This document shows, in pieces, positions 10,524-55,935 of a stretch of DNA of 64,000 bases (positions are counted from its first letter, which is position 1; each line of letters opens with the position of its first letter). The notes below the pieces were generated by a model. That model had not been told where the DNA came from and searched no databases. It saw nothing but the letters and a program-made list of their open reading frames with translations. A program made the translations under genes and the position numbers. The stretch lies in contig NZ_JAUSWH010000014.1 of the NCBI RefSeq assembly GCF_030815125.1, forward strand, positions 62,001 through 126,000, read 5' to 3'. Source of the stretch: Allorhizobium paknamense. GTDB lineage: Bacteria > Pseudomonadota > Alphaproteobacteria > Rhizobiales > Rhizobiaceae.

Positions 10524-10622
10524 AAAGCATAATTCGACCGGAGTGAAACGAGGATCGATAAAATTATGCTTCAAAAATAAGCGTTAGAGTGCTGATCTGA
10601 TTCAATCAGATCAGCACTCTAA
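10524..10622 (+). repeat. Family B ~100-bp bipalindromic (RIME-like) element at the purH 3' end
   Basis: Palindrome 1 spans AGCATAATTCGACC to ATTATGCT. Palindrome 2 is a near-perfect hairpin around GATCTGATTCAATCAGATC with outer arms TTAGAG/CTCTAA. Three other full copies and one half copy occur in the window. The TAG stop of purH (complement of 10619-10621) is formed by the outer arm of this element. Confidence 0.88.
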
Positions 10623-23201: not shown

Positions 23202-23302
23202 CTAGAGCGCCGATCTGATTGAATCAGATCGACCCTCTAACGTTTTCTTTTTGCAGCATAATCTTGATCATCCTCGTTTCACTCCGGTCGGATCATGCTC
23301 TA
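23202..23302 (-). repeat. Family B ~100-bp bipalindromic element at the M48 gene end
   Basis: Read on the minus strand it starts TAGAGCATGATCCGACC and ends GGCGCTCTAG. The reading frame that is open in the thiB and thiP copies is closed here by TGA (GGATGATC). Its outer arm provides the TAG stop of the M48 protease gene (complement of 23300-23302). Confidence 0.88.
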
Positions 23303-25084: not shown

Positions 25085-25807
25085 TCAGCTTTTTCCAAGA
25101 AAGCGTTGCACCTCAGGTACATCCCGCATTGCGAAGAATTGGTTCTGGGGCACGAGGAAATCAAGCCGCCCCTGCTGCAGAAAGGCCACCTCGTCGGCAA
25201 GAGCCGCGACATCCTGCGGATTATGCGTCACCAGCAGCACCGTGCTGGCGGTTTGACGCTGGAGGCTGAGCAACAACTCCCCCATTTCCGCCCGAAGCCC
25301 CGGATCGAGCGCGGCAAAGGGTTCGTCCAGAAGCAGGATCGGTTTTCTGCGCACCAGCGCCCGCGCGAAAGCCGCCCGCTGGCGCTCGCCGCCGGAGAGC
25401 GTGGCAGGCTTGCGCCGCTCATAGCCGGCCAGACCGACATCGCTCAGTGCCCGGCTGATGGAAGCCCGGTCCTCAGCGTCCAGTTTCAGGCCGGGATGGA
25501 TGCCAAGACCTATATTGGTGGCGAGATCGAGATGGGCGAAGAGGTTATTGTCCTGAAAGATCAGCGAGACTGGCCGAAGCCCGGGCAGCTGCGCGGTCAA
25601 ATCCGCACCGGAAAACAGAATACGCCCCCGGGCCGGGCGCTCAAACCCGGCAATCAGATTGATCAGCGTCGATTTGCCAGCACCGGAAGGGCCGGTGATG
25701 GCCGTGATGGCGTTGGGTGCAAAGCGGGCATCGAAATGAAAATCGCGCGCGCCCAGTTGCAATTCGACGCCTTCAAGGGCAAGCGCGTCTTTCTCCCGTT
25801 CGGTCAT
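25085..25807 (-). CDS. thiQ: Thiamine ABC transporter ATP-binding protein ThiQ
   Basis: A 240-residue ABC ATPase energising uptake of thiamine and its phosphates. Walker A is GPSGAGKST, the Q-loop IFQDNNLF, the signature LSGGERQRAAFARAL, Walker B ILLLDEPFAALDP, and the switch His lies in VTHNPQD. The ATG overlaps the thiP TGA (ATGA), so the two are coupled. ThiB and ThiP precede it and a TPP riboswitch controls the unit. Within the related iron, molybdate and spermidine families, thiQ is supported by the operon context. Confidence 0.93.
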   Translation of the reverse strand: MTEREKDALALEGVELQLGARDFHFDARFAPNAITAITGPSGAGKSTLINLIAGFERPARGRILFSGADLTAQLPGLRPVSLIFQDNNLFAHLDLATNIGLGIHPGLKLDAEDRASISRALSDVGLAGYERRKPATLSGGERQRAAFARALVRRKPILLLDEPFAALDPGLRAEMGELLLSLQRQTASTVLLVTHNPQDVAALADEVAFLQQGRLDFLVPQNQFFAMRDVPEVQRFLGKS

Positions 25808-27516
25808 CGCCGGTTCTCCCCCGCCCGTCCCGGCTGACCGATCAGCGTCAGCAGCAGGCACACCAGACCGAGCAACAGCGCCAGCCCATCCGCATCGGCG
25901 CTGCGGTAATGGCCGAGACGGCTGAAAATCAGCCAGGGCAACGTCGTCAGACGGTCCGCCCCGAAGAGGGCGACAGCGCCGAGATCACCGAGGGAAAGAG
26001 CCATGGCGAAGGACAATGCCGTCAGCAGCGGACGTTTCAGACCCGGCCAATCCACCCACCGCAGCCGGGAAAACCCGCTGAGGCCCAGGCTTTCCGCCAG
26101 CCGGTCATGACGGCGGTGATGAACATCCACGGCTGGTTGCAGCACGCGCATGGCAAAGGGCAGCGCCATCATCGCATTGATCAGAATGACGACCGGGGCC
26201 GCAAAGATGGCCACATTTCCGAAGCGCCTGAGCAGCAGGAACCAGCCGGTGGCAATCACGATGGCAGGCACAAGCAGCACCAAAGAGGAGGCAGCACCAA
26301 TCCCGGCTTTCAGCAGGCGGGCGGGCAGGCCCGAAGCCCGCGCCAGCGCGATGCGAGCGCGGCTGAAGGCGAAGCTGAGCAGCACCGCCACCAGACCGGA
26401 GGGAAGCGCAATGCCAAGGCTGACGGCGAGCGCCTGGTGAACGGCAGGATCGCTGAGCAGGCTGACAAGATTGGAGCGAAGGCCGGAGAGAAGGACCTGC
26501 GCCAATGGAGCCGCCAGAAACAGAAAGGCGAGACCCAGCCACAGCCCGTCCTTGAGCCTTGCAGACCAGCTTTCGCCATCGAACCGGCGCGTCGGACGCT
26601 GATCGGTCAGCCCCACCTCCGGCGGCGCGGGCCAGAGGGTCAGAAGCAGCAGCATGAGCGCCGTGACGGCAAGCTGAAGCGCGGCCAGCGCCACGGCCTG
26701 AGGCGGATCGAAATCGAACCGCAGTGCCTGATAGATCGCCACTTCCAGTGTGGTCGCGCCCGGCCCGCCGCCCAAAATCAGCACGAGGGTGAAGCTTGTG
26801 GCGCAGAGCATGAAGATCAGCCCGGCAATCCCCGGCAGAAGGCCGCTGACGGCTGGCCATTCGATCAAGCGGAAAATGGCGCGGCGGCGCATGCCGAGAC
26901 TTGCCGCCATCTGCCAATATTCCGGCGGCAGCCGTTCCAGTCCCGCCAGCATCAGCCGTGCGGCCAGCGGCATGTTGAAGAAGACATGCGCGAGCAGAAT
27001 TCCGGCAAGCCCGTAGATGCTCACCGGCGCCTGCACCCCCAATAATGCCAGCCCCTGATTGATGACGCCGTTGCGTCCCCAGATCCCCAGGAGGCCCAGC
27101 GCACCGATCAGCACCGGCAGCCCCATCGGCACCGCCATCAGCCGGATCAGCAGCAGCCTGCCAGGAAAACGCCGCTGACGCGCCAGGGACAGCGCCACCG
27201 GCAAGGCAAACACCACCGACAGCAGTGTGGACAGCAGCGCCTGCCACAGCGTGAAACGCAAAATGGAGAGCGTGGCGGGCGCAAGCACGGGCAGGCCATT
27301 CCCCGCCGTTTCCATCAGCAGGGAAGCAAGAGCAACACCGATGAAGAACAGGAGCAGGACAAGCCCGATCAGCCCCCCAAGTGCTGCGGCTCGCCCATGA
27401 GCGCTTTCCGATCTGACTGAATCAGATCGGCGCTCTAACGTTATATTTTTGAAGCATAATCTTGATCGTCCTCGTTTCACTCCGGTCGGATTATGCTCAT
27501 GCCGGAGGCCGGTCAT
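25804..27516 (-). CDS. thiP: Thiamine ABC transporter permease ThiP, with repeat-encoded N-terminal insertion
   Basis: A 570-residue fused permease with two BPD_transp_1 halves and about 12 membrane segments. It forms the channel of the ThiBPQ importer. The start ATG lies 3 bp after the thiB stop. Residues 1-6 are followed by about 33 residues (7-39/40) encoded entirely by a family B repeat and read as EHNPTGVKRG, then RLCFKN, then [11 protein letters not shown]. The first membrane segment (ALGGLIGLVLLLFFIGVALA) begins right after. No ATG, GTG or TTG in frame lies between the repeat and this segment, so translation has to cross the repeat, from the ATG or from a GTG inside it. The same peptide occurs in ThiB. 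Confidence 0.92.
   Translation of the reverse strand: MTGLRHEHNPTGVKRGRSRLCFKNITLERRSDSVRSESAHGRAAALGGLIGLVLLLFFIGVALASLLMETAGNGLPVLAPATLSILRFTLWQALLSTLLSVVFALPVALSLARQRRFPGRLLLIRLMAVPMGLPVLIGALGLLGIWGRNGVINQGLALLGVQAPVSIYGLAGILLAHVFFNMPLAARLMLAGLERLPPEYWQMAASLGMRRRAIFRLIEWPAVSGLLPGIAGLIFMLCATSFTLVLILGGGPGATTLEVAIYQALRFDFDPPQAVALAALQLAVTALMLLLLTLWPAPPEVGLTDQRPTRRFDGESWSARLKDGLWLGLAFLFLAAPLAQVLLSGLRSNLVSLLSDPAVHQALAVSLGIALPSGLVAVLLSFAFSRARIALARASGLPARLLKAGIGAASSLVLLVPAIVIATGWFLLLRRFGNVAIFAAPVVILINAMMALPFAMRVLQPAVDVHHRRHDRLAESLGLSGFSRLRWVDWPGLKRPLLTALSFAMALSLGDLGAVALFGADRLTTLPWLIFSRLGHYRSADADGLALLLGLVCLLLTLIGQPGRAGENRR
27399..27498 (-). repeat. Family B element inside thiP, in frame
   Basis: A 100-bp copy read from GAGCATAATCCG to GAAAGCGCTC. 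Compared with the purH-end copy, it has one extra base near AAAAATATAACGTTAGAG, which shifts the TAG of the intergenic copy out of frame and leaves an open frame through the whole element. Confidence 0.92.
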
Positions 27517-27519
27517 GAC

Positions 27520-28644
27520 CTATTTCGCCATGGCGGCCTGCCACTCCTCGATCCATTCCTTGCGGTGGGCAGCCACCTCCTCCGACGACATCAGGAAGGT
27601 CGTCTTCGGCTGGATCAGTTTGGAGAAGGCATCCGGCAAGGGCTGAGACGTCCGGGCCACCGGCATCATCCAGTTGTTGGTCGGAATTTCATCCTGAAAA
27701 CCGGGCGTCAACATGAATTTCAGGAAGTCGCGGGCAAGATCCTGATGCTTTGCGTCTTTCAGCAAACCAGCAACCTCGATCTGGATGTAATGCCCCTCGG
27801 AAAATTCGGCAGCCTTGTAGCGGTCGGTATTTTCGGACACCATGTGATAGGCGGGCGAGGTGGCATAGGAAAGCACCATCGGCGCTTCGCCCTTGGTGAA
27901 CAGCCCATAGGCTTCCGACCAGCCGGGCGTGACTGTCAGCACCCGGTTCTTCAGCTTTGCCCAGGCGGCGGGCGCATCCTTGCCATAGACCGACTTGACC
28001 CAGAGAAGCAGACCAAGCCCGGGGGTTGAGGTGCGCGGGTCCTCGATGACGATCTTCTGCGAGGGATCTCCCTCCACCAACTCCTTCAGGCTTTTCGGCG
28101 GGCTCTTCAGAGTCTGGCTATCATAGACCACGGCAAAGTGGCCGTAATCATAGGGCACGAAGACATCATCCTTGAAACCGCCCGGTACGCTGGCAGCCGA
28201 AACATCGATGCCATGCGGTGCGAAGAAGCCGGTTTTCTTTGCCTCTTCCGTCAGGCTGGTGTCCAGGCCCAGAACCAGATCCGCCTTGGTGGAGGCCCCT
28301 TCCAGCTTGAGGCGATTGAGCAGTGCCACGCCATCTTCCACGCCGACGAAATCGACCCGGCAACCGCAGGTCTTTTCAAAGCTCGCCTTGACCTTCGGAC
28401 CCGGTCCCCATTCCGAGATGAAGCTCTCATAGGTGTAGACGGTCAGGACCTTGTCTTCGGCGTCAGCGGCATGCGCCGTTCCAGAAAGCGCAGCAGCCAT
28501 GATGGCGGCAGTGATTTGGAGTGTACGGCGTAGAGCGCCTTTCGATCTGACTGAATCAGATCGGCGCTCTGACGGCTTATTTTTGAAGCATAATCTTGTC
28601 GATCCTCGTCTCGCTCCGGTCGAATTATGCTCTAGAAACATCAT
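27520..28644 (-). CDS. thiB: Thiamine-binding periplasmic protein ThiB, with repeat-encoded N-terminal insertion
   Basis: A 374-residue periplasmic binding protein (family 1, iron/thiamine type; [28 protein letters not shown]). It captures thiamine, TMP or TPP for ThiPQ. The start ATGATG has AAGGGGG 4 bases upstream. After three residues, exactly 35 codons (residues 4-38) are a family B repeat ([30 protein letters not shown]). The signal peptide ([21 protein letters not shown]) follows directly. The only in-frame start between repeat and signal core is an ATG inside the hydrophobic core, so the precursor must carry a basic extension of about 40 residues before the signal sequence. A TPP riboswitch lies about 50 bases upstream. 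Confidence 0.92.
28531..28635 (-). repeat. Family B element inside thiB, in frame (35 codons)
   Basis: A 105-bp copy with ends CTAGAGCATAATTCG and GGCGCTCTA. It has the extra base (AAGCCGTCAGAG) that removes the in-frame TAG found in the purH-end copy. Its orientation and frame relative to the host gene are the same as in the thiP copy about 1.1 kb away. Confidence 0.92.
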
Positions 28645-28696
28645 AGCCCCCTTGTTCAAATGGATCGTGGGATGAGGGCGTGTTGGATGACGCATC

Positions 28697-28777
28697 TAAT
28701 CCCTCCGCCGGTATGAGCCGGATCAGGTTCCGCGGGTTGGCTGGATGCCTCTCAGCAAGAAAACTTGCACCCCGTTA
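28697..28777 (-). promoter_or_regulatory. TPP riboswitch (THI element)
   Basis: On the minus strand the conserved blocks appear in order: GGGGTGC, GCTGAGAGG, ACCC, GAACCTGATCCGG, then ATACCGGCGGAGGGA. These are the P2/P3 and P4/P5 parts of the thiamine pyrophosphate riboswitch. It lies about 50 bases before the thiB start and should switch thiBPQ off when TPP is abundant. Confidence 0.97.
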
Positions 28778-28888
28778 GATATAAAGCTGATTTAGCGGCA
28801 GTGTATGGCGCTGGCAAGAGGCCCGCCGCAAGCAGCTAGGACCGGCTTCCCGGACCGAACGCCTCGGCCAAGAAAAAGAACTAAAATA

Positions 28889-29729: not shown

Positions 29730-29777
29730 CTACTGCATAATTCCTAAATCGATTCCGATTCAGGAATTATGCAGTAG
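29730..29777. repeat. Family C palindrome alone (half of a CD element)
   Basis: CTACTGCATAATTCCT (29730-29745) and AGGAATTATGCAGTAG (29762-29777) are perfect inverted copies with a 16-base loop. This is the C half of the CD element without D. It lies 18 bp after the stop of the unrecognised gene and may act as its terminator. Confidence 0.85.
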
Positions 29778-55890: not shown

Positions 55891-55935
55891 TGCATAATGC
55901 GACCCGAGTGAAACGAGGATCGATAAAATTATGCA
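55891..55935 (+). repeat. Half of a family B element (palindrome 1 only)
   Basis: GCATAATGCGACC, AGTGAAACGAGGATCG and ATAAAATTATGC match the first palindrome of B. The second palindrome is absent and an inverted CD element follows at once, so this is a chimera of two element families. Confidence 0.85.

Follow-up and report, generated by a model that had tools for sequence, protein, structure and literature searches.

The stretch of Allorhizobium paknamense DNA analyzed here (64,000 nucleotides, hereafter the window) comes from a draft genome of 5.33 Mb in 46 contigs and carries a thiamine transport operon in which two adjacent genes, thiB and thiP, contain copies of a palindromic repeat element of about 104 bp. 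On the minus strand the order is thiamine pyrophosphate (TPP) riboswitch, thiB, thiP and a thiQ-like gene. thiB (27520..28644) encodes the substrate-binding protein of a thiamine ATP-binding cassette (ABC) transporter, with 374 amino acids including the insert, and starts with the ATG at 28644, which is preceded by AAGGGGGCT and has a Shine-Dalgarno-like AAGGGGG ahead of it. thiP (25804..27516), which starts with the ATG at 27516, encodes the permease, with 570 amino acids including the insert. Both assignments are supported by orthologue alignments and by matches above the cut-off to TIGR01276 (ThiB) and TIGR01253 (ThiP).

The copy in thiB occupies 28531..28634 on the minus strand (104 bp including the TA at both ends) and adds a net 102 bp, or 34 codons, between the start codon and the signal peptide. 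The copy in thiP, at 27397..27500 on the same strand, also adds a net 102 bp, or 34 codons, lies between the start codon and the first membrane helix, and is flanked by AT at both ends instead of TA. The two copies are identical in orientation and frame and lie directly behind the start codons of their genes. This is in agreement with an earlier sequence-only reading, which had placed the same palindromic element in both genes, in one orientation and frame, before the signal peptide of ThiB and before the first membrane segment of ThiP. Its in-frame copy in thiB stands as well, but its count of 35 codons included both CTA codons, and the net addition is 34.

The TPP riboswitch aptamer upstream of thiB (28683..28784, minus strand) matches Rfam RF00059 with 72 bits (gathering threshold 54.3) and is the only feature of the window to reach its gathering threshold; the element itself has no Rfam match above that score. 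The next gene downstream of thiP (25085..25861, minus strand) encodes an ATP-binding protein whose best NCBIfam match, TIGR01277 (thiQ), stays below the cut-off (231.5 bits against 245.05), and the element search of the window gave no match in this thiQ-like gene. Elsewhere in the window the element occurs at 23203..23302 (minus strand, net 98 bp), in a copy of a shorter subfamily which is closed by TGA in the thiB frame, and at 10526..10622 (plus strand, net 97 bp), in a copy whose spacer is one base shorter and which is closed by TAG in that frame; both closures had been read correctly before. A partial copy, with consensus bases 6-48, lies at 55892..55934 on the plus strand.

Start codons and orthologues of thiB and thiP

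In the comparison with orthologues proposed in the sequence-only reading, the element is absent from all 109 orthologous loci searched, each of which matches both gene bodies (two sets of 29 and 80, which overlap as genomes). In a ranking by ThiB that may leave out the organism itself, the best-placed named relatives are, among others, Allorhizobium terrae, Agrobacterium vitis, Rhizobium oryziradicis and Allorhizobium taibaishanense, and a Rhizobiaceae metagenome assembly ranks ahead of them. In the orthologues, ThiB begins immediately ahead of the signal peptide and ThiP immediately ahead of the first helix. The upstream starts of thiB and thiP have counterparts in these orthologues, and it is at this position that the element splits the leaders here.

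It had also been claimed that no alternative start follows the repeat before the hydrophobic segment of either protein. This holds for thiP, in which the first start codon after the repeat is at the end of the first hydrophobic segment. It needs correction for thiB, where one ATG, the only one between the repeat and the mature protein, is codon 49 and falls within the hydrophobic core of the signal peptide. Translation from this ATG would give a leader of 11 residues, which is too short for Sec export.

The repeat family and its insertion sites

An internal 27-mer of the element, with up to 3 mismatches allowed, has 77 matches in the genome against 0 for a reversed control, so the recurrence of the element is not due to chance. 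The genome contains at least 74 near-full copies (at least 85 of the 106 consensus bases), around which 388 kb were fetched; this number excludes partial copies shorter than 85 bp (15 of the 89 BLAST hits), and five copies found later (L342-L346) enter no count. The element lacks a transposase and carries terminal inverted repeats, TTAGAGC..GCTCTAA in the consensus. TA is present at both ends in 53/74 copies, for which TTAA and CTAA are the commonest targets (38/53), and the net addition, with one TA counted, is 102 bp in 48/74 copies and 98 bp in 12/74. Base-exact empty sites are available for two copies outside this genome, one in a moxJ-like gene and one in a Bartonella MFS transporter gene (both described below), and they hold a single TA, which is consistent with a 2-bp target duplication. 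Exceptions to the TA ends are the moxJ-like copy, in which one TA has changed, and the thiP copy with its AT/AT flanks. By its length, its inverted repeats and its TA flanks, the element is a non-autonomous repeat resembling miniature inverted-repeat transposable elements (MITEs).

Related copies are carried by plasmids of Agrobacterium, Sinorhizobium, Rhizobium and Allorhizobium, and mosaic or partial versions occur in Bartonella, Ochrobactrum, Shinella, Asticcacaulis and Novosphingobium; replicons of Sinorhizobium fredii NGR234 and S. sojae match at 89.6% over the full element length. A single search of the genome for the IS630-family DDE_3 domain revealed an IS630-type element of about 1056 bp (L327 1375-2430, on contig C32) that carries TAGAGCGCGTCC at each end and has open frames in two phases; one of these frames matches the DDE_3 transposase domain. 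From its sequence, this IS630-type element may be a mobilizer of the repeat. A second short palindrome with TA flanks (TACTGCATAATTCC..GGAATTATGCAGTA) lies at 29731-29776 of the window, and sequence like its end adjoins some copies of the main element (C9:193644, C4:297779 and C11:157710), as if the two palindrome families insert beside one another.

The consensus is free of stop codons in two of the six combinations of orientation and phase: in sense with TA at codon positions 2-3 (xTA), and in antisense with TA across positions 3-1 (T/A, split between two codons). If TA occupies codon positions 1-2, the reading runs straight into a TAG. Among the 49 copies with a net length divisible by three, 41 have an open sense frame and 46 an open antisense frame; an open frame is thus the default state of the element, and no loss of a TAG is needed. 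The earlier proposal that both in-gene copies had lost the TAG through a one-base difference fails: the thiP copy retains GTTAGAG, read as ACG TTA GAG, and the copy at 10526 is one spacer base shorter. Selection for an open frame in the element is unsupported, as 661 of 2000 shuffled consensus sequences have at least two open placements.

Copies in the stop codons of predicted genes are several times more frequent than the available TA sites would lead one to expect. In 22/74 copies, one of the terminal TA positions falls within such a stop codon, so that the gene is terminated by the TAG of the element (for example at C4:134421 and C9:31020), compared with 128 of the 1940 available non-coding TA sites (P 1.3e-9). 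When the target context is matched, 4.6 of 53 such sites are expected and 17 are seen. Gene ends in this test are predictions of our own hexamer gene caller on the 388 kb around the copies. When the element is removed from 23 such gene ends, on the assumption of TA duplication, the restored codon is TAA in 16, TAG in 5 and TAC, which is not a stop, in 2. Annotated genes give the same picture: two convergent genes on pAt of Agrobacterium tumefaciens both end inside one copy (L201 1501-1606), and Rhizobium sp. ACO-34A, Novosphingobium, Asticcacaulis and Shinella have genes that terminate within a copy or a relative of the element. Stop-codon insertions may be over-represented because other insertions are selected against.

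In-frame copies outside the thiamine operon, which the sequence-only reading had advised looking for in this genome, were found in three genes. The first is in the same genome (C12:56915, L133) and encodes an FhuD-like binding protein, whose start lies before the sense-oriented insert and whose signal, which we take from its motif to be of the twin-arginine type, lies after it. In all 19 orthologous loci listed, an ATG aligns with this start and is followed by a short leader without the insert; the N-termini read MSAD in 13 of them, MS[AP][DE] in 17, MFAD in 1 and MPAE in 1. In another genome of the genus (G020, L162), the element lies in antisense orientation in a gene for a MoxJ-like binding protein (TIGR03871 above the cut-off). 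All four relatives aligned, of 15 other matching loci, lack exactly 102 bp, or 34 codons, and contain the upstream ATG.

The remaining gene encodes an MFS transporter on a plasmid of Bartonella sp. HY328, with a sense 102-bp insertion at about 1438-1543 of L203. The copy of strain HY329 is identical over the 110 bases compared, and the insertion is absent from both homologues aligned from other strains (HY406 and HY761). It lies between the two halves of the protein, which suggests a position in the central loop; the central loop of MFS transporters is cytoplasmic. The right module of this insertion is the present element and the left module is different, with the total still exactly 102 bp, a sequence pattern which suggests mosaic module exchange at constant length.

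All five in-gene cases use solely the two open placements: CTA in thiB, CAT in thiP (AT replacing TA) and TTA in the fhuD-like and MFS genes, all in sense, and the split T/A in the antisense moxJ-like gene. The net charge of all five inserts is positive (+3 to +8), which makes them compatible with cytoplasmic segments. In four of the five, the affected protein is an exported or membrane protein and the insert falls among its first 13 codons (binomial P 1e-5, a rough value, since the uniform 13/340 model behind it is a rough yardstick).

The five cases are a lower bound and not a census. In the other genomes, the copies read were those with long open frames (>100 or 120 codons) or those supplied as loci. 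In the A. paknamense genome, the element is traversed by open frames with 60 or more flanking codons, 24 of them in sense and 14 in antisense. Besides thiB and thiP, 17 sense and 7 antisense frames were translated, the remaining 5 sense and 7 antisense frames having 61 to 108 flanking codons. Among those translated, sorted by eye and by hexamer score, the fhuD-like gene was the only clear additional case; the others looked non-coding or antisense, or the gene started after the element, as in genes named by eye as radical-SAM-like and glutathione-reductase-like. The hexamer caller placed 68 of the 74 copies, including that of thiB, between genes and let 6 overlap a gene: two of these are the copies of thiP and the fhuD-like gene, and the other four overlap a gene on the opposite strand. 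These four predicted genes (C9:31020, C18:88, C16:95745 and C3:261266) run 18 to 22 bp into the element and would so acquire short element-encoded C-terminal tails. In genome G007, a copy open in the antisense frame lies upstream of a signal-peptide protein (L339, C8 near 161027-161137) with a plausible GTG start after the element; it is ambiguous and was excluded from the cases.

Origin of the inserts and comparison with known repeats

We suggest that the thiB and thiP inserts are most likely mobile insertions which the proteins tolerate and which behave as Rickettsia palindromic elements do. A non-autonomous, TA-targeting element of Rhizobiaceae and their relatives would insert by transposition at TA, leaving TA at both ends, and would have landed independently just past the start codons of thiB and thiP, in the cytoplasmic leader. 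The insert would then be translated as a positively charged extension of 34 residues, which the protein would tolerate with near-neutral effect while remaining functional and, in the case of ThiB, exported. We read the leaders before a signal peptide or a first helix as belonging to the small number of sites at which 34 added residues cause little damage. The selection for 5′ sites considered in the sequence-only reading is thus borne out as regards the 5′ clustering, but not as regards a benefit; the clustering fits as tolerance.

Several observations weigh against this interpretation. The hexamer gene caller alone put the start of thiB 29 bp past the element and that of the fhuD-like gene at an in-frame ATG inside it. 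Base-exact empty sites for thiB and thiP are lacking among the loci compared, none of which is from an element-free strain of the same species. Genome G007, with 71 peptide matches and a comparable copy number, has no clear in-gene case among the copies read. The thiP copy has AT in place of TA at its flanks. The IS630-type element, the one candidate mobilizer that the search gave, carries TAGAGCGC at both ends and shares just these 8 bases with one end of the repeat.

The choices of the gene caller would be explained if the element formed a 5′ leader only, with translation beginning after it (in thiB at codon 49) or reinitiating there, so that no element peptide entered the proteins. Folding of the 5′ ends, another analysis suggested by the sequence-only reading, shows that both regions fold better than shuffled sequences (z −2.57 for thiB and −2.42 for thiP); the strong hairpins of thiB, which begin about 12 nt past the start codon, might hinder that start. 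We nevertheless consider a leader-only role improbable. Translation from codon 49 would ruin the signal peptide of ThiB, in thiP no start codon comes up until the first hydrophobic segment ends, and the starts upstream of the element match the orthologous start position. The moxJ-like insertion is exactly 34 codons long and follows an ATG which its uninserted relatives possess, and in the gene-internal Bartonella copy a start after the element cannot give a whole protein. The same folding could be taken to mean that the inserts are kept for a benefit, such as hairpins or a leader peptide tuning transporter synthesis under the TPP riboswitch, all the more as two genes of one riboswitch-led operon carry the element. 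That two of the three in-frame copies of this genome share one operon is mildly surprising. The fold, however, follows from the palindrome and is common to intergenic copies. We saw no peptide conservation in the in-gene copies, since several of the differences from the consensus in the thiB and thiP copies change amino acids, and the thiB and thiP inserts were seen in one genome only; a benefit is therefore very unlikely in our view.

A further possibility is that thiB and thiP are young pseudogenes broken by the insertions, as export could be lost with 34 foreign residues placed beside a signal peptide. Apart from the inserts, however, the two reading frames are undamaged and match their families, with no frameshift or stop in 374 or 570 codons, and all five cases found are phase-correct. 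The thiB copy shows 10 differences from the consensus, and no other copy of its length class comes closer to it than 7 differences, so its insertion is probably not recent, although part of this divergence may stem from the source copy. Loss of function is accordingly a highly improbable explanation. Two insertions at one relative place in adjoining genes had led to the proposal of gene conversion, and the spread of one copy to the other gene by conversion or local duplication would also suit their shared orientation and frame and the abundance of the element in the window (4 near-full copies against 0.89 expected; Poisson P 0.013). The two copies, however, differ at 13 of 100 interior positions and, with ties included, thiP ranks 28th of 47 among the neighbors of thiB and thiB 35th of 47 among those of thiP. 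Closer copies are found elsewhere (7 differences from thiB and 5 from thiP), and the flanking dinucleotides differ (TA vs. AT). The two copies look like independent insertions, and we regard a direct transfer between the genes as extremely unlikely.

Going beyond tolerated insertion, the element could be viewed as a design that is safe for reading frames: its length is divisible by three, either orientation offers an open frame, and each end carries TAG. It would then fit stop codons without extending the gene and pre-signal leaders without breaking it, and this property would be the reason why its mosaic subfamilies persist in Rhizobiaceae and Bartonellaceae, where they would repeatedly lengthen the leaders of transport proteins. 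We hold such a design to be rather unlikely, both as a property of the element and as the reason for its maintenance.

Rickettsia and Wolbachia palindromic elements (RPEs and WPEs) are palindromic repeats of about 100-150 bp that are also intergenic and that, where they sit in conserved protein genes, are in frame and open (PMC2229807, PMC10969869, PMC3767692). The element described here is likewise palindromic, about 104 bp long and, by its sequence, read in frame in five genes. It appears to work like an RPE, as the sequence-only reading had proposed for two genes, a likeness of behavior and not one of compared sequence or claimed common descent. It differs in that nearly half of the RPEs of Rickettsia conorii are reported inside open reading frames, whereas 3/74 copies were found to be read through in frame here, and in that it is flanked by TA and that, of the in-gene sites found, 4/5 fall in the leader ahead of a signal peptide or first helix. 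The enterobacterial RU/ERIC repeats are also MITE-like, with TA ends in ERIC/RU-1, and are fused in frame to annotated genes, some of them beside predicted signal peptides (Delihas 2007, PMC2759123). They have another sequence and other hosts, and several of their loci are described as C-terminal extensions, as hypothetical proteins or as cases in which the element forms part of the predicted signal (PMC2759123), whereas here an existing signal is kept and shifted 34 codons downstream.

Among the repeats of Rhizobiales, the Rhizobium-specific intergenic mosaic elements (RIME) and the AB and C palindromes of Sinorhizobium resemble the present element by description, not by sequence, in being repeated, structured and called mosaic, and RIME has been grouped with intergenic repeats (PMC2573895). 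Bru-RS1 and Bru-RS2 of Brucella, a host genus of the same order, are palindromic repeats of 103-106 bp (PMC2267715, PMC10800456), a similarity of length that again rests on description and not on sequence; their location is coded I in PMC2267715, which we take as intergenic. The supply of a TAG stop by element ends has a precedent in the GTAG-tagged repetitive extragenic palindromic (REP) elements, whose ends often provide it to flanking genes and some of which lie wholly inside genes (PMC3733652). REPs are 20-40 bp long, whereas the present element is flanked by TA and usually adds 102 bp. MITE-gene fusions are known from enterobacteria and Coxiella (PMC2759123, PMC5896051), and a 2024 review considers protein change made by MITEs in other prokaryotes to be conceivable (PMC10969869). 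Within titles and the beginnings of abstracts, with subscription papers largely outside the scope, we recognized no report of this element inside rhizobial or Bartonella genes.

The present results place apparently protein-coding palindromes in Rhizobiaceae genomes and on a plasmid of Bartonella, and for two of the cases the filled and the empty site are both known to the base. The rule of two open placements, the sites before export signals and the sites in stop codons together give a simple, testable account of where the element can settle. They also imply that the start codons of genes bearing the element may be misannotated.

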